From assembly GCA_944386605.1 (NCBI GenBank), contig CALXBS010000006.1, forward strand, positions 1 through 54,794: DNA of 54,794 nt, read 5' to 3'. This document shows, in pieces, positions 39,129 to 47,036 of the stretch. A model generated the notes under the pieces. That model was given only the letters and a program-made list of their open reading frames with translations. It was not told the DNA's origin and did not search any database. The translations under genes and the position numbers were made by a program. Position 1 is the stretch's first letter, and each line of letters starts with the position of its first letter. Origin of the DNA: an uncultured Clostridia bacterium (lineage in GTDB: Bacteria; Bacillota; Clostridia; TANB77; CAG-465).

Positions 39129-40463
39129 TTAAGCGGGTATCTCAATAAATCCACCCATATACAAATTAATTAATGGAACTAGTACTACTATAGTAAAGAT
39201 CACTAACATAATTCCAACGATAAGATAAGTAATCTCTGGTAATAATTTTGTAAATCTTTTTAGATAAGTATTTACTTCCATTGCAATATATTCATTTACC
39301 TTTTCTAAAATCTCTGCTAAATTAGATTTCATCCCCACTTCAATCATTTGAGTCATCATTTTATTAAAGATTTTCTTTTCAACAAAAGGTTTGTACCACA
39401 TCTCTCCATTTGCGATACATGCTCTACTTTTTTCAACGATAGAAGCAAAATAATAGTTTTTGGTAATATTTCTAGATACTTCTAAACTTTCCTGGATTCT
39501 CATACCATTTTTTAAATTTAGTAACATTGCTTGAAAAAAGTTATTTAACAAAATATTGGTGTTTAACTTTCCAAATATTGGCATTTTTAATTTTAGCTTA
39601 TCCTTAAAGAATCTTCCTTTAGGAGTACTGGTATAAACTTTCCAAACAATCAGTACAAGAACGATTGCAATCACAAAAAAGTACCAATATTGCATTAAAA
39701 ATTTTGCACAAGAAAGTGCTACTAATGTTGCTTGTGGAATTTCCTGACTAGATCCAAACATTTGATAAACATTTTCTAGTAATGGAACTCCTACAATAAG
39801 TGCTACAAACATAGAAAGCAAGATAAATACAAATTGTAATAATCTTGGAACAAGGTTTTCTCTAACGGTTTTCTTTAATTTATCAGATTTTTCAATATAT
39901 TCTCTTACATAAAGTAAAGATTCTTCTAATGTTCCTGCCTCTTCTCCTACTTTGATAAAATTAATAAACATTTCTGGAAAAACTTCTGAATATACCTCTA
40001 AGGAAGTATATAATTTTTCTCCTGCAATCACTCTTTTTAAAACATCTTCTAATATTTCTTTAAAATAACTATTTTCAATTCCTTCACAAATAGAAGATAA
40101 TGCATCTACATTATTAAATTTTGCTTTTTTTAAAATATAAAAATCATTTACAAAAACAAGCAAATCCTTAGAAGAGATTTTTTTAGAAAAATTAACATCC
40201 ATTGTTAATATTTCTTTTACACTCATCTGTTTAATGCTTCTTTTTTTCATGCCGTTTTTCTTTTCTTGTTTTCTTTCTTGTTCAATTTTTTTAAAGTTTA
40301 CTTTCCTATACTTTCTTAAACCACTTTTTTGTTCTTTTATCATAAGAGGTTGCATATGATCTTCTTTTAAGCTAGTTAAAACTGCATTTTTATCGGTTGC
40401 AAGTATTCTTCCCGTTGTGACTTTTCCATTTTCTAATACCGCCTTATATCGATAACTTGGCAA
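39129..40463 (-). CDS. pilC: Type IV pilus/type II secretion inner-membrane protein PilC (GspF)
   Basis: 444 residues. The family start pattern PSYRYKAVLENGKVTTGRI and two T2SSF domains are visible: the first around SSKDLLVFVNDFYILKKA...FPEMFINFIKVGEEAGTLEESL, the second around NTNILLNNFFQAMLLNLKNGMRIQESLE...MIEVGMKSNLAEIL. Three membrane spans are seen. A basic linker of about 45 residues (KYRKVNFKKIEQERKQEKK) sits after the N-terminal part. PilC is the platform on which PilB acts. I start at TTG 40463, 7 nt after AGGAGG; the GTG at 40472 is inside that site. Confidence 0.92.
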   Translation of the reverse strand: MPSYRYKAVLENGKVTTGRILATDKNAVLTSLKEDHMQPLMIKEQKSGLRKYRKVNFKKIEQERKQEKKNGMKKRSIKQMSVKEILTMDVNFSKKISSKDLLVFVNDFYILKKAKFNNVDALSSICEGIENSYFKEILEDVLKRVIAGEKLYTSLEVYSEVFPEMFINFIKVGEEAGTLEESLLYVREYIEKSDKLKKTVRENLVPRLLQFVFILLSMFVALIVGVPLLENVYQMFGSSQEIPQATLVALSCAKFLMQYWYFFVIAIVLVLIVWKVYTSTPKGRFFKDKLKLKMPIFGKLNTNILLNNFFQAMLLNLKNGMRIQESLEVSRNITKNYYFASIVEKSRACIANGEMWYKPFVEKKIFNKMMTQMIEVGMKSNLAEILEKVNEYIAMEVNTYLKRFTKLLPEITYLIVGIMLVIFTIVVLVPLINLYMGGFIEIPA

Positions 40464-40478
40464 AATATACACCTCCTA

Positions 40479-42116
40479 TTAAATTAAAATATTTCTTTTT
40501 AATTCTTCTACAGTTGTAATTCCATTTAATACTTTTTTAACACCATCTACAATGAGAGGCTTATAGTCTGTTTTTTCCATCGCATATTTACGAATATCAA
40601 TACTAGATTTTCCATCTGAAATCATATCTTTTAAATATTCATCTAAACATAACACTTCATAAAGAGCAATTCTTTCATAATACCCGGTATAGTTACAAGT
40701 TGCACATCCAACAGGCTCATAAGTTTCACATGCTTTTAAGTCAAAGTTTACTTTGGTTAATTTTTCTACTCTTTCAATATACTTTTTCTCTTCATCATTT
40801 AAAACATGTTGTTTTTTACAATGTGGGCATAATCTTCTTACCAATCTTTGCGAAATAGAAGTAATGAGAGTTGCAGATACATCATAATCAGAAATCCCCA
40901 TTTTTCTTAATCTAGTAATTGCCTCAATTGCGTCTATGGTATGAATGGTACTTAACACCAAATGACCGGTTTGTCCTGCTTCTATTGCAATTTTTGCTGT
41001 ATCTAAATCTCGTATTTCTCCGACTAAAATAATATCAGGGTCTTGTCTTACAACCGTTCTTAAAGCAGATTCAAACGTAATAGATTTTCCAATTTCTATT
41101 TGATTAATTCCAGGAATTCTACGCTCTACAGGATTTTCAATAGAAATAATATTAATTTCTGGTCGATCCAAATATTCTAATACACTATATAACGTTGTGG
41201 TTTTACCTCCACCCGTAGGGGCACAAACAAGTACCATACTATTTTTTTGCTGAAAAGCTCTTTCAATTAATTCCGGATTATTTGGAAATCCTAATTCAAA
41301 TAAATTCTTTGCTTCTGTATTCTTTTTTAATAATCTTAATACAAATTTTTCTCCGTTTACATTTTTTTGACTGGAAACACGAATGCTATAATTTTCATAA
41401 GTGTTAATACTTCCATCTTGATCAGAAGTAAGCTCTTGGTGCATATTAGAAATGGCTTTTATTCTTCCAGCGATTACTCCTTGACGGTATTTTGATATTT
41501 CACTTACAGTAATTAATATTCCATCAATACGATAACGAATTCTTACCTTGTCTTCCATAGGTTCTATATGAATATCAGAAGCTCTTTTTTCAATAGCAGT
41601 CATAATAATATTATCAATTAACTTCGTAACATCTTTTTCTTCACTATTGATAAAAGTGGTTTCTACAGTTTTAACGGTTTCAATTTGCCTCATAATAGAA
41701 GTATAAAGTGTAATATATACTTCCATTGTATATCCTTCGTTTAATAACAAAAGCTCTATTTCTTTTACTTTTTCGGTATCTAAAGGATCTGCAAAAGCTA
41801 CTTTTAACGTGGTTCCTTCAATTGCAAAAGGAATCACTTTATAATTAATAATCATATCCCTTGGTAAATATTTCACAGGATTAATTTCTAATTTTTGTGT
41901 TAACATAACAGGAGTCACTTGGATTTTGTATGCTAATGTATCCAGCAATTCATTCTTATCACACATATCTAGTACATCTACAATTTCACCAAATTTTAAA
42001 TCCTTATGATCATTTTGATAGCTTACAACCTTTTCAATTTGTTCTTCTGTTAATAAACCTCTTTTTAAAAATTCTGCACCAATTGGATTTTTTCTTGCCT
42101 TAACATTTTCAAACAT
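40479..42116 (-). CDS. pilB: Type IV pilus assembly ATPase PilB (GspE)
   Basis: 545 residues. An N-terminal MshEN-like domain (GAEFLKRGLLTEEQIEKVV) comes first. The secretion ATPase core has CAPTGGGKTTTLYSVL (Walker A, about residue 300), the Asp box, RQDPDIILVGEIRD (Walker B) and LVLSTIHTID (His box). The tetracysteine zinc motif is made by LCPHC (about 429) and CATC (about 472). It powers pilus extension. No PilT retraction ATPase is in the operon. AGGAGGG precedes the ATG. Confidence 0.95.
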   Translation of the reverse strand: MFENVKARKNPIGAEFLKRGLLTEEQIEKVVSYQNDHKDLKFGEIVDVLDMCDKNELLDTLAYKIQVTPVMLTQKLEINPVKYLPRDMIINYKVIPFAIEGTTLKVAFADPLDTEKVKEIELLLLNEGYTMEVYITLYTSIMRQIETVKTVETTFINSEEKDVTKLIDNIIMTAIEKRASDIHIEPMEDKVRIRYRIDGILITVSEISKYRQGVIAGRIKAISNMHQELTSDQDGSINTYENYSIRVSSQKNVNGEKFVLRLLKKNTEAKNLFELGFPNNPELIERAFQQKNSMVLVCAPTGGGKTTTLYSVLEYLDRPEINIISIENPVERRIPGINQIEIGKSITFESALRTVVRQDPDIILVGEIRDLDTAKIAIEAGQTGHLVLSTIHTIDAIEAITRLRKMGISDYDVSATLITSISQRLVRRLCPHCKKQHVLNDEEKKYIERVEKLTKVNFDLKACETYEPVGCATCNYTGYYERIALYEVLCLDEYLKDMISDGKSSIDIRKYAMEKTDYKPLIVDGVKKVLNGITTVEELKRNILI

Positions 42117-42126
42117 CTTATCCCTC

Positions 42127-42345
42127 CTATTTTTGTTTTTCTAACTGTTTCTGATAATATTCTTCTATATTATTATAATCTTTTTCATATAATTGTACAA
42201 TGCTTTTTTCGTATTTATCTTGTAGAATATAGAAGTGCTCCTCTTCTGCAAAAGTAGAGGTTACATAGACTGTAAATATCACTGCAGATAACACCACTAC
42301 TAAAATTCCCGATCCCATCCATTTATTTTTAAAAATCTTACTCAT
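42127..42345 (-). CDS. Small single-span membrane protein of the pilus operon
   Basis: 72 residues: basic start, one membrane segment (GILVVVLSAVIFTVYVTSTF, about residues 11-31) and a charged helical tail (DKYEKSIVQLYEKDYNNIEEYYQKQLEKQ). No family recognised. The ATG at 42345 follows AGGTG; the GTG at 42354 is inside that site. It overlaps the end of the preceding pilin-like gene, so a part in the same machine is likely. Confidence 0.65.
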   Translation of the reverse strand: MSKIFKNKWMGSGILVVVLSAVIFTVYVTSTFAEEEHFYILQDKYEKSIVQLYEKDYNNIEEYYQKQLEKQK

Positions 42346-42760
42346 TTGATTCACCTACTGAAAAAAGAATATTTTTTTGGAGTGTCTTTCCATACTTTTC
42401 TACTACTATTTCTATTTGATACAAGCGCTCACTTTTTAGCTCTAAATGAAACTCTTCTACATTACTTAAAAGTAAAATGTCATTTTTTAAAATGCTTTTT
42501 GTTTGTGTATCATAAACATACTCATCCTGATTAGAAAAGACAAATTTATCTCCAATTTGATCTAAATAGGTACTTTGACTTGCACTATTTAAAATATTAA
42601 ATTGCAGTTTTTGCACTGCTTCATAATTGATAATTTCTCCTTTTCGATTTAATGCCATATAATTCATATTGGTACCAAAAGCAATCGCAATGGAAGTAAA
42701 TATAAAAAATAATACGACATAAATTAAAATAGATGTCATGGTAATTCCTTTTTTATACAA
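42338..42760 (-). CDS. Prepilin-like protein (minor pilin)
   Basis: 140 residues. MYKKG-ITMTSILIYVVLFFIFTSIAIAFG has the form of a short basic class III leader ending in Gly and a long hydrophobic helix, as in type IV prepilins. It lacks Glu at mature position 5. A globular domain follows with PulJ/GspJ-like pattern (NRKGEIINYEAVQKLQFNILNSAS...VEEFHLEL). I keep the TTG start at 42760, which has GGGAGT upstream and keeps the leader; an ATG seven codons later has AAAGGA and would delete the leader. Confidence 0.7.
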   Translation of the reverse strand: MYKKGITMTSILIYVVLFFIFTSIAIAFGTNMNYMALNRKGEIINYEAVQKLQFNILNSASQSTYLDQIGDKFVFSNQDEYVYDTQTKSILKNDILLLSNVEEFHLELKSERLYQIEIVVEKYGKTLQKNILFSVGESNE

Positions 42761-42761
42761 C

Positions 42762-43535
42762 TTACTCCCTACCTTTCACTGTATGTATTTTTAATTCATA
42801 TGGTTTTTCTAAAACCTCATATGTTACCGTCATTTCAACAATCTTTACCAAATCTTGTTTGGTGGTATCTTGTTCTGATAATTTGGTTACTTGCGATTTA
42901 ATATGATAGTCAATTTGATGAATCCTTTCTTCTTTTTCATAGCTTACTACCTCTTCATAAGGGTTTGCTTTTATGGTCTCTAATTGCTCAATTGCTAAAT
43001 TTAAAGCTTCACTCTTTGCACGTGTTAAAAGAAAACGATTGCTGGTATTTCTAGTAACAAGATACATGGTGGTAAGTACAAAACAAAAGATAATCATAGC
43101 GACTAATAGTTCACTTACAAATACACCCTTTTTTGCCTCTTTTAAAGCTTTTCCATTTTTTTTAACAGATACAATAACCCCTATTGCAAAGAAAAGTATA
43201 ACATAAAGAATTAACACAAGCGCAAGTTTTACAGTATATCCTAGTAAAAGGTACGCTATTAAAAACACAAATGCATTGACAAGCTCTAGTATAAAATAGG
43301 AATTGCTAATTTTATGAGAACAATACTTACATTTTCCTTTTCTTATAAGAAAGCTTATCAAAGGGATTAAATCCCAAAATGCAAGTTTATGCTTACAATT
43401 TGGGCAATAGGAATGTTTGATAATAATATCTTCTCCTCTTGGAATCCTATAAAAAGCAAGTGAGAAAAAGCTTCCAAACAAACTTCCCATGATCCACATT
43501 AAAGCCCCTATTACTCCACTAATGATTATTTCCAT
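42762..43535 (-). CDS. Fusion of the prepilin peptidase N-terminal domain with a prepilin
   Basis: 257 residues. The first 110 or so match the N-terminal domain of prepilin peptidases: GSLFGSFFSLAFYRIPRGEDII, then CPNCKHKLAFWDLIPLISFLI and CKYCSHKI, which supply the four zinc cysteines, and a membrane span. Where the Asp-protease half should follow there is instead a prepilin: KEAKKG-VFVSELLVAMIIFCFVL, with Glu at mature position 5 and a GspI-like body (SEALNLAIEQLETIKANPYEEV). The catalytic aspartates are absent. The ATG at 43535 has CGGAG upstream. A frame-true fusion without stop codons, placed among pilin genes. Confidence 0.8.
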   Translation of the reverse strand: MEIIISGVIGALMWIMGSLFGSFFSLAFYRIPRGEDIIIKHSYCPNCKHKLAFWDLIPLISFLIRKGKCKYCSHKISNSYFILELVNAFVFLIAYLLLGYTVKLALVLILYVILFFAIGVIVSVKKNGKALKEAKKGVFVSELLVAMIIFCFVLTTMYLVTRNTSNRFLLTRAKSEALNLAIEQLETIKANPYEEVVSYEKEERIHQIDYHIKSQVTKLSEQDTTKQDLVKIVEMTVTYEVLEKPYELKIHTVKGRE

Positions 43536-43603
43536 GCTTTCATCTCCGTCTAGCTTAAATACGACAAAGACATATATACTCCATGGCATATATGTCCTTT
43601 ATT

Positions 43604-44056
43604 TTATTCTGGATTAGATACTACTAATGAAACAATACCATTTGTATCTACCATGAAATCTTTCAATCTTTCAGCTGAAATTCCTAGGTCTTCTGCTTTT
43701 AAAGTATATGGTGTATCTGATTCTTCAGCAATAGCAAATTGCTCTACGCCATTGATTTTCTTTTTGGTAATCATTTTGGAACTATCATTTGTGACACAAA
43801 ATGTTAGTGTTCCATCTTCTAAAACACCGCCATCTTTAAAAGAAACAGGTTCTTTTGTATTATACATCATTTTGGTTAATAATGTATTGACAGCCGTTTG
43901 AACTGTTAGCTTATCTGTTGCATCTACACTTGTTTTACTTTCTCCTATCACATCCATTCCATCTTTTAAAGAAAGAACTACTGCAGAAGCAAGTATAATC
44001 ATAACGATTACAGTAATGGCAAGAACTATTAAAGAAACACCTTTTTTTGATCCCAT
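43604..44056 (-). CDS. Prepilin-like protein
   Basis: 150 residues. MGSKKG-VSLIVLAITVIVMIILASAVVLSLKDG is a short basic leader ending in Gly plus a pilin-type helix of the kind common in uncultured Firmicutes; Glu at mature position 5 is missing. A small globular domain follows (SVDATDKLTVQTAVNTLLTKM...). The ATG at 44056 has AGGAGG right upstream; the longer open frame to 44113 has none. It may be the main pilin or a minor one. Confidence 0.75.
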   Translation of the reverse strand: MGSKKGVSLIVLAITVIVMIILASAVVLSLKDGMDVIGESKTSVDATDKLTVQTAVNTLLTKMMYNTKEPVSFKDGGVLEDGTLTFCVTNDSSKMITKKKINGVEQFAIAEESDTPYTLKAEDLGISAERLKDFMVDTNGIVSLVVSNPE

Positions 44057-44067
44057 ATTTTTTCCTC

Positions 44068-44568
44068 CTATCTCACACCTAATTTTAAGCCATTCATTTC
44101 TGAGCCCCACCAATTTGGTGTTTCCTCAAAATTAACTTTTATCATTCCTTCTTCTGTAACATACCAAGAAATATCTGAATAAGAAGATATATCTACATTA
44201 AATAATGTTTTTACATTATCATTTACCAATTTATAATAACTTACTTCATTTTCTTCTACTTTATCATTTGTATCAATCACAGAAACTAATACATTATCTT
44301 CATTATCTTTAATATCTACTAAATTCCCTTCACTATCCTCTGATTTTGCAGAAAGAATTTCTAATTTTGTATATGCTCCAAAAGTATCTGAATAGGTAGA
44401 GCCAAGATAATAAGATAAACCAGATTGTAAATCTTGTACATCATTTAGAAAACTTGCTTTCTTTTCTACATTTCCTACTCCATTTTTTCCAAATAAAACA
44501 TATGCTCCTAATAATAGTAACAATGCTATTAATACAAATATAACTACGGTTTTACTTTTTTCTGACAT
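44068..44568 (-). CDS. Single-span membrane protein of the pilus operon
   Basis: 166 residues: SEKSK, a membrane segment (VVIFVLIALLLLLGAYVLF), then a mostly beta extracellular domain (DLQSGLSYYLGSTYSDTFGAYTKLEILSA...SDISWYVTEEGMIKVNFEE). Resembles a pilin-like or assembly accessory protein without a processing site. AAGGAGTG precedes the ATG at 44568. Its place between pilO-like and pilin genes supports a pilus role. Confidence 0.6.
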   Translation of the reverse strand: MSEKSKTVVIFVLIALLLLLGAYVLFGKNGVGNVEKKASFLNDVQDLQSGLSYYLGSTYSDTFGAYTKLEILSAKSEDSEGNLVDIKDNEDNVLVSVIDTNDKVEENEVSYYKLVNDNVKTLFNVDISSYSDISWYVTEEGMIKVNFEETPNWWGSEMNGLKLGVR

Positions 44569-44919: not shown

Positions 44920-45522
44920 TTATTTTAGAATAACAATATCTTTTACATCAAATGTAGCTTTAATTTGTGTTCCAGATACATATTCCATTTCTATGTTATC
45001 TAACTTAAAAGAAAGCTCACTATCACTTTCTAAATGAAAAATAAATTCAGCTACATCTGTATAACTACCTTCTACTTGAATTGTAAAAATAGAATCTTCT
45101 TTTGTTTCTTCAGAATTTAAAGAATTTCCTGGTTCTGCTACAACAATTTCTAAATGATTTGCTGAAGCATAATTTCCAAGTTTGATCCAAATATATTCTA
45201 TGCTATATTTATCTTTTGCATTTAGCTCATTAATCATTGTGACTGTTTCAGGACTAATTGCCTCATATTTTGCTTTTTCTTGTTCAAATTCCTTTTTTAA
45301 GCTATTTAATTTATTTTCTAAAATGCTATACTTTGTACTTTCTAATTCTAAACTAGTTTCTGCAACTTTTACTTGCTCTTTCTTCTCTGCAATTTGTTTT
45401 AAGGAAAGAATAGACACATTTCCAAATTGTATTCCCTTCCATCCTGCAATTACCAAAAGACTTGTGATAAGAACAAATGTTACTAACACAACGCAATTTT
45501 TTATCTTATATGATTTGATCAT
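44920..45522 (-). CDS. pilO: PilO-like pilus assembly protein
   Basis: 200 residues with the PilO plan: short cytoplasmic start, a membrane segment (NCVVLVTFVLITSLLVIAGW), a coiled coil of about 60 residues (EKKEQVKVAETSLELESTKYS onward), then a ferredoxin-like domain with FTIQVEGSYTDVAEFIFHLES, the most typical PilO stretch. PilO pairs with PilN in the inner membrane. The ATG overlaps the stop of pilMN by ATGA, with GGTGGTGAG upstream. Confidence 0.82.
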   Translation of the reverse strand: MIKSYKIKNCVVLVTFVLITSLLVIAGWKGIQFGNVSILSLKQIAEKKEQVKVAETSLELESTKYSILENKLNSLKKEFEQEKAKYEAISPETVTMINELNAKDKYSIEYIWIKLGNYASANHLEIVVAEPGNSLNSEETKEDSIFTIQVEGSYTDVAEFIFHLESDSELSFKLDNIEMEYVSGTQIKATFDVKDIVILK

Positions 45523-47036
45523 GGCAACTCACCACCAATTTCTATTACGGTAACATTTCCATTTTTGACATCTTGAATGGTAACATTTTGTAAAGTGTTT
45601 TGTAATTTTATTTCAGATACAAAATATCCTAAATCCGCATAATCATCTGCTTGCGCTACAATTGTAATATGTTTATTATCATCTGAGCGAATAGAAATTA
45701 ATGTTACCTTTTCTGGTATGATTTTCATAATATTTTGCAAGAATGAAGCCACATGATAAGTGGAAGCATTTTCTTTGGAATCTTGCATGATAGCATCTAC
45801 TTTTTGATTGACCGCTGCATACTGATCTTTATTTTCTGTTATATAGTCAATATCGGAATGAATATTTGTAATATTTTCCCCAATGATTTCTAAGTTTTCA
45901 TTTACATCTTTTACAATTTTATCTACCTGCTGGTTATAAAAAAAGCCAAAGACAGTATATACTACAAATACAAAAGAAACGAGTACACAAGCATAACTTA
46001 AAAATTTCGTATTTTTATTTAATTGTTTTACATTTTGATGTTCCAATGATCTTTTCTCATTTAACAAAAAATTATTTTTTCTATTCCCTAAAAGATGTTC
46101 ATAAGAAAGTGTCATTGCCTCTAGTACTTCTACAATTTCAGCAAGATTTTTTTCTTCTCTTTTTACATCAACAAAAAATGGAAATAAATATTCACAAGAT
46201 AGATCAAAGTAATCTTTGAGTAAAAGATCAAAGTTTCTAAACAAATTAATATTTCCTGCTAGATAAAGTTTTTGAACTTGGGTTTTATGTTTGGTTACAA
46301 AAGTAGAAATTTCTTTTAAAATATCTTGTAATACAGGTTCTATAATTCTTTCGATTTCTTCATCATTTACTTTTTGTTCATCCGCATAAACATTGATCTG
46401 CTTACAAGTTTCATATGCTTTTTGATAAGAGCCTAACTTTTCTTTTAACCTTTCAAAAATAGGAGTTAAGCCTTTTGAAAAAGAACGAATATCTACTATT
46501 TTCCCATCTACTACGGTAGTTGCAGTTGTATTTTCACCTATATCTAGCAATATATAATTTTCATCATTCTTTTTAATTAGATTAGACATTAACAAACTAG
46601 TTGGATAAATCCCCTCTATTTTATATGTCTTCTCTTTTATATTTTCTTGTATTTCTTCTTTTTTTATGATATCAATAACACCATTATTTTTCACCTTTGT
46701 GTCCGCTAACACATAAGTATACATATATTTTTCAGGTGATTTTGCATTTTTTTCACACCATGCTTCTAGTTCCGTATTTAATACTTGTTTTAGATAGCCT
46801 GGTTTTAAATGGTTTTCTAAAATATTAAAATTAAGATAATGATTATGGCAAGAATTGATAACAATAGGAATATTTTCAGAAGAAGTTTCTGAAATAATAT
46901 TTGAAATTGCAATGTCTGTACTTATTTTTGCAAATCGAATACCATAATCCATTAGTGTTATATTTCCATTACTTACAGAAAGCTTAGCATATTTTAGTAT
47001 ACTATTTTCTAAATAAATTCCCAAACACTCAGCCAT
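45519..47036 (-). CDS. PilM-PilN fusion protein
   Basis: 505 residues. Residues 1 to about 320 are PilM-like, an actin-type ATPase fold (LGIYLENSILKYAKLSV, YILLDIGENTTATTVVDGK). A membrane segment at about 345-367 (LSYACVLVSFVFVVYTVFGFF), a coiled coil and a small domain (ASFLQNIMKIIPEKVTLISI...) then form PilN. In other species PilM binds the short cytoplasmic PilN peptide; here the two are one chain, which fixes their 1:1 ratio. First gene of the operon; AGAGGAAAT precedes the ATG. Confidence 0.85.
   Translation of the reverse strand: MAECLGIYLENSILKYAKLSVSNGNITLMDYGIRFAKISTDIAISNIISETSSENIPIVINSCHNHYLNFNILENHLKPGYLKQVLNTELEAWCEKNAKSPEKYMYTYVLADTKVKNNGVIDIIKKEEIQENIKEKTYKIEGIYPTSLLMSNLIKKNDENYILLDIGENTTATTVVDGKIVDIRSFSKGLTPIFERLKEKLGSYQKAYETCKQINVYADEQKVNDEEIERIIEPVLQDILKEISTFVTKHKTQVQKLYLAGNINLFRNFDLLLKDYFDLSCEYLFPFFVDVKREEKNLAEIVEVLEAMTLSYEHLLGNRKNNFLLNEKRSLEHQNVKQLNKNTKFLSYACVLVSFVFVVYTVFGFFYNQQVDKIVKDVNENLEIIGENITNIHSDIDYITENKDQYAAVNQKVDAIMQDSKENASTYHVASFLQNIMKIIPEKVTLISIRSDDNKHITIVAQADDYADLGYFVSEIKLQNTLQNVTIQDVKNGNVTVIEIGGELP

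Follow-up and report, generated by a model that had tools for sequence, protein, structure and literature searches.

What is the zinc domain of a prepilin peptidase doing at the front of a prepilin, and how would such a protein be cut if it lacks the peptidase half itself? The question is raised by one gene in the pilus operon of an uncultured Clostridia bacterium (GTDB lineage Bacteria; Bacillota; Clostridia; TANB77; CAG-465). PilD is one enzyme with two activities: as a peptidase it trims pilus proteins, and as an N-methylase it caps them. The window, that is, the whole stretch of 54,794 nt analyzed (assembly GCA_944386605.1, contig CALXBS010000006.1, positions 1-54,794), contains a gene in which one part of such an enzyme continues into a minor prepilin, with the following elements:

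42762..43535, minus strand: fusion gene, A24_N zinc module (putative methylase) plus GspI/ComGE-class minor prepilin; 257 aa, ATG at 43535
43248..43493, minus strand: PF06750 A24_N domain, residues 15-96, taking in most of the first membrane helix; Pfam E=1.3e-28, second search E 1.6e-29 with the same coordinates
43320..43406, minus strand: zinc-ligand region C44xxC47...C69xxC72; the four Cys invariant in 18/18 fusions
43155..43304, minus strand: predicted membrane helices 2 and 3 (model helices 78-98 and 102-127), from the AlphaFold model and sequence hydrophobicity
43125..43154, minus strand: variable, predicted cytoplasmic linker, residues 128-137, ending in KKG; end of the leader and putative cleavage site G137/V138; G137 invariant in 18/18, linker length varying
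42765..43124, minus strand: mature minor pilin, residues 138-257, Glu5 = E142; in the model a long helix 138-190 and then four strands, a GspI-like fold

An in-frame ATG at 43589 is an alternative start and would lengthen the protein to 275 aa. The original prediction of a zinc domain fused to a prepilin was borne out, with PF06750 and the G137/V138 site in the single open reading frame 42762-43535, as were its two CxxC pairs, C44/C47 and C69/C72, and its missing protease half. The peptidase domain PF01478 had no match in the fusion protein (Pfam) nor anywhere in the window's own genome; this domain (PF01478 / IPR000045) and both catalytic Asp of PilD are lacking. A single membrane span had been proposed after the zinc domain; this has to be corrected to two. 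The AlphaFold model, built from 18 homologues with a mean pLDDT of 80 and poorest in the zinc loop (56-64), consists of helix 2-33, the zinc loop, the two further helices, a short linker, the 53-residue helix 138-190 and four strands. In terms of this model the fusion protein is TM1-zinc-TM2-TM3 followed by a complete pilin; a full A24 prepilin peptidase has eight membrane helices, whereas here three are predicted in addition to the helix of the pilin. Since two membrane helices lie between the zinc domain and the pilin, the KKG loop is placed on the same membrane side as the zinc domain, and the cut site would face the cytoplasm as a prepilin requires. The cytoplasm is the side where prepilin peptidases act (PMC10191384).

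The C-terminal half is a minor pilin of the GspI/ComGE/PilV class. It begins, as originally proposed, at KKG with a complete prepilin site, KKG/VFVSELLVAMIIF (KKG/VFVSE), a class III Gly/x4Glu arrangement with E142 at +5 and a hydrophobic helix thereafter. Gly137 and Glu142 are invariant in 18/18 fusions, and the linker just before Gly137 is variable in both length and sequence. Comparison of the pilin part with known structures gave EpsI (Z 10.5, rmsd 2.6 over 81) and E. coli GspI (Z 10.3), ranks 1-7 being occupied by T2SS pseudopilin entries (EpsI, GspI and XcpV complexes; Z 8.5-10.5). In Foldseek these entries also come first, although their E is above 0.001. NCBIfam scores of the C-terminal half were below cut-off for both ComGE (19.3 bits, cut-off 49) and GspI (16.0, cut-off 44.35), and a sequence search of solved structures returned chance-level matches only. 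The leader of this pilin is not short and hydrophilic; it has 137 residues and three predicted membrane helices.

The gene is embedded in an operon whose other members are:

45519..47036, minus strand: PilM-PilN fused protein (PilN 3.5e-5; TIGR01175 9.6e-6, under cut-off)
44920..45522, minus strand: PilO-like protein (PilO E 0.041, weak)
43604..44113, minus strand: pilin without Glu5 (MGSKKG/VSLIVLAI), presumed major pilin
42338..42760, minus strand: minor pilin without Glu5 (KKG/ITMTSILI)
42127..42354, minus strand: 75-aa pilin-like protein without Glu5 (GSG/ILVVVLSAVIF)
40479..42116, minus strand: PilB/GspE extension ATPase (T2SSE 9.5e-99, MshEN)
39129..40472, minus strand: PilC/GspF platform protein (T2SSF 2.7e-31)

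The fused prepilin is the only one of the operon with Glu5, in agreement with the original prediction; the other three prepilin-like proteins read G/VSLIV, G/ITMTS and G/ILVVV. This pattern is opposite to the textbook one, as the presumed major and the other minor pilins are without Glu5 and only the GspI-class pilin has it (its counterpart in family f3, see below, has Asp5). A PilT-like ATPase between PilB and PilC (39129-42116) is absent from the window, from genome G002 and from the five f5 operons read; one of 361-370 aa occupies that position in f3, in complete f4 and in the other f1 operons read.

The recurrence of the fusion was followed in a set of 57 genomes made up of the window's own and those of 56 relatives; 39 of them contain a match to the fusion protein. 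Among the 36 genomes of the window's family (f1; f2-f5 are the other families compared), 18 carry it full-length in one open frame (17 relatives besides the window's own); in one more, G011, the halves occupy two frames. The full-length fusion is thus found in 18 of the 19 f1 genomes examined that bear A24_N and the pilus. These fusions come from five genera, and those of the relatives are 34-49% identical to the window protein. A profile of the 18 fusions (A1) gave 18 full-length matches in 238 genomes of the order, all of them in f1. Against 391 class-level genomes no full-length match outside f1 was present among the matches listed, in which five genomes were f1, four with the full-length protein and G011 with the split one; horizontal spread of the fusion was rejected on this result.

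The origin of the fusion can be read from the gene order of the other families. In f5 the operon runs PilM, PilO-like, pilin(s) where seen, a complete PilD (A24_N + A24), a Glu5 minor pilin, a second minor pilin, a small pilin, PilB and PilC, and the second catalytic Asp of PilD is present in 9/11. The order is similar in f4; its PilD is without both Asp (3/3), and its Glu5 pilin, encoded separately, starts with a leader of ordinary kind. The second-Asp column of the f3 PilD is never Asp (0/83) and the first is Asp in 70/83; these columns were counted on the alignment because the GxGD pattern alone misses variants such as the GGAD form of L013. The gene after PilD in f3 encodes a Gly/x4Asp pilin in L119, L138 and the public record L011, and some f3 operons (L118, L137) are without it. 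In f1 the A24_N module runs straight into a homologue of the separate neighbour pilin of f3-f5: alignment by hhalign of 19 rows for the fused pilin, one of them from G011, against ten separate Glu5/Asp5 neighbours gave 98.9%, E 1.3e-16, and 97.8%, E 3.7e-12, when the first 30 residues were left out, versus 11% for the next pilin and 1.2% for the major pilin as controls. As f5 has a complete PilD with a separate pilin, and f3 and f4 have a PilD without the second Asp, the peptidase half therefore decayed first, and the surviving zinc half was then fused in f1 to the neighbouring gene.

Relaxed selection on the dead half of the f3 enzyme was considered and is not supported, the ratio of C-part to N-part identity being 0.55 in f3 (74 genes) and 0.57 in f5 (10 genes). 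Given these similar ratios and the retention of the first Asp, the C-half of the f3 PilD may still have some role. Truncations that keep the zinc module, as open frames of 129-161 aa, also occur inside f3: L171 (G088), L175 (G149), L212 (G189) and L223 (G104). Separately, a 441-aa protein at L120:1261-2583 has a pilin-like N-terminus (TSG/ISLVALIVTIIVLIILTAAVIVTF), which suggests that large non-pilin proteins of the order may use prepilin-type signals.

In the split genome G011 the A24_N gene ends at the linker position and its stop overlaps the pilin start as ATGA. A PilB+PilC+PilM tree covering 21 genomes shows f1 as a clade (100/100); the fused genera g2, g4, g5 and g3 branch outside g1, and G011 lies inside g1 (100/100), the forks around it being weak (52-57% bootstrap). 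A tree of A24_N only could not tell an ancestral G011 from a derived one. Because G011 is nested within g1 among fused genera, the simplest history is a single fusion and a single later fission, and the split is probably secondary, favoured on parsimony rather than proved.

Whether the zinc half still does something can be judged from its conservation. The A24_N module is under strong purifying selection: in six pairs of f1 genomes the dN/dS ratio, rough since dS values are above 1, was 0.02-0.13 for the A24_N part, 0.13-0.34 for the pilin part and 0.15-1.86 for the linker (19-35 codons), and the A24_N value was lower than that of the pilin in 6/6 pairs. The four Cys are kept in all A24_N loci read, 19 in f1, 83 in f3, 11 in f5, 3 in f4 and 3 in f2 (80 of them were read with a pattern requiring Cys, and 0/80 were dropped). 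Within f1, A24_N is present in 19/19 genomes with a two-domain PilC and in 0/17 without it. Gly95 of PilD, two residues before the third Cys, presumably has a methylation-specific role. The equivalent residue is Gly in 17/19 f1 (2 Ala) and 82/83 f3 loci, Gly67 in the window, position 95 being located through the Cys numbering in PMC3584216.

The cut would then have to be provided by another protein, and the original prediction had proposed that the catalytic half be sought elsewhere. A second A24 gene of about 245 aa was found in 16/19 f1 pilus genomes; it is a different A24 protein, without the Cys motif and with both Asp, and could not be located in the window's own assembly. From 62 matches, the 30 genes listed with a locus, from f1-f5, were read, with GxGD in 30/30, the first-Asp motif in 29/30 and CxxC in 0/30. 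A HAD-phosphatase motif lies near 19/30 in the flank fetched, a YqeG-type gene where tested. The Cys-free A24 gene is also kept in 15/17 f1 genomes without the pilus operon (L045-L074), and is thus not dedicated to this pilus. Neither profile nor protein searches found an A24 peptidase in the window's own assembly, 92% complete, where the search for a divergent A24 gave only one weak match (G000:C4, E 1.2), which is no evidence, nor was one found in pilus-bearing G009, G027, G037 and G046. These five assemblies likewise have no above-cut-off match to YqeG, the usual neighbour of A24, and four other genomes searched have one. The missing pair may reflect a gap or a co-loss, which look alike when YqeG is also lacking. 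G037 and G046 are rated 99% complete and yet gave no A24, and the cleavage step is hence the weakest point of the reconstruction. On sequence grounds, a Cys-free A24 peptidase encoded elsewhere is the likely agent that cuts the fusion. Cleavage in two by a true peptidase after Gly, one of two fates proposed originally, would agree with the invariance of Gly137 and Glu142 behind a poorly conserved linker and with the two halves of G011, which are two proteins. The other, permanent docking of the zinc domain on its own pilin, is made less likely by the invariance of the cut site.

GspI-class minor pilins start pilus assembly. In the reading that we prefer, the fusion gene would be the remnant of the operon's own PilD merged with the gene that follows it, one for a minor prepilin of the GspI/ComGE class. 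The Cys-free A24 peptidase, acting in trans, would cut after Gly137 and release two products: the mature minor pilin, expected to initiate or cap the pilus, and an A24_N fragment that is set free within the membrane. This fragment would do the zinc-dependent job of PilD, S-adenosylmethionine-dependent N-methylation of the newly exposed pilin N-terminus. Thus the peptidase and methylase of PilD would now be two proteins, with the methylase half delivered as a pilin leader, and owing to the fusion each initiating minor pilin would come with one methylase module (1:1). That the zinc half is kept where the peptidase half is gone points to a retained methylase; in PilD, N-methylation depends on the zinc bound by the four-Cys motif, whereas cleavage does not (PMC3584216). 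An A24_N domain by itself, even that of PilD, is not known to act as a methylase (PMC4471445). As a whole, a methylase-only remnant of PilD that serves as leader of its own pilin and is freed by the cut after Gly137 is the best reading of these sequences, and its probability is put somewhat above even. The wider proposal, that peptidase and N-methylase have been separated across several families of one order and that the f1 methylase is a self-delivering leader of the initiating pilin freed at maturation, is more tentative and falls a little short of an even chance.

Among other explanations, the one that survives best, which we nevertheless regard as unlikely, is a split peptidase in which A24_N binds the Cys-free A24 protein as a substrate adaptor, both together rebuilding PilD and methylation being secondary. 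The module retains the TM1-zinc-TM2-TM3 order of PilD and a catalytic A24 without the Cys motif accompanies it in 16/19 f1 pilus genomes. However, the Cys-free proteins have, in their sequences, a hydrophobic N-terminal region of their own and persist in 15/17 f1 genomes without A24_N, and are thus independent of it; besides, removal of zinc from PilD spares cleavage (PMC3584216). Less probable still is a fused pilin that escapes cleavage altogether and, anchored by A24_N, serves permanently in the membrane as base or priming platform. The five pilus-bearing assemblies in which no A24 peptidase was found, the window's own included, would fit this arrangement, and so would a three-helix domain unlike an ordinary leader, but G137 and E142 would hardly be invariant in 18/18 next to a varying linker, the G011 pilin is made with an ordinary short leader, and neighbouring pilins have the same kind of cut site. 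There is slight probability that A24_N is a non-catalytic relic retained merely as membrane-targeting leader: the cut site would accept any leader and the peptidase half is already gone, whereas the dN/dS of the module (below that of the pilin in every pair), its invariant zinc ligands and the persistence of the four Cys where A24_N lacks a working peptidase (all 83 f3, 3 f4 and 3 f2 loci read) argue for function. Finally, an assembly join or sequencing deletion merging two neighbouring genes, for which the original prediction had allowed, can be given practically no weight and chance or artefact is refuted, because, although separate genes do occur in f3, f4, f5 and G011, which is one half of what the original prediction had named as refuting it, the fused frame runs without a break in 18 genomes of five genera with relatives only 34-49% identical to the window.

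If the wider proposal, separated activities with the f1 methylase delivered as pilin leader, is true, the operon would encode a self-delivering methylase-only enzyme, and pilin N-methylation would be selected on its own. The peptidase half has been removed or disabled in several families with the zinc half intact, either within an inactive full-length relative or by fusion to a minor pilin, and two activities that reside elsewhere in one enzyme would here have been separated by nature. An isolated A24_N would allow methylation to be tested without the confounding peptidase and could reveal the zinc half's own role. Moreover, a predicted prepilin whose leader is a three-helix membrane protein would widen the known substrates of prepilin peptidases.

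In the literature searched (listings and passages), no description of a prepilin-peptidase/pilin fusion was recognised, and no account was found of several families that lost the peptidase half or of a methylase-only state. The domain and the pilin class are known; the architecture, this loss in several families and the methylase-only state are apparently new, as judged from that literature. With the N-terminal domain of PilD/ComC (PF06750 / IPR010627) the fusion shares TM1, the CxxC-x21-CxxC zinc loop and the following helices, the Gly two before the third Cys in most members and the location in a pilus operon, but it is without the peptidase domain (PF01478 / IPR000045) and both Asp, and its C-terminus is a pilin. 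With GspI/PilV/ComGE pilins it shares the class III cut site, Glu5, the long helix with a four-stranded sheet and the neighbour order seen in f3-f5, and differs in its leader, which is no short hydrophilic peptide but a zinc domain with three helices and 137 residues. In family f2, stand-alone A24_N genes (~130 aa) have pilin genes on one side and a PilM-like gene on the other (L115:7884-8264, L116:11348-11749, L131:26-325), and the separate A24 genes lie elsewhere; this is apparently an independent split of PilD. The first two of these loci resemble the fusion in lacking the peptidase half and in lying in a pilus operon, but they are unfused, 127-134 aa long, and their operons contain Glu5 pilins of the ordinary kind. 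Some A24 peptidases, TadV among them, are without the methylation domain (PMC10191384); this type resembles the Cys-free A24 genes described here and is the mirror image of the fusion, which keeps the opposite half.
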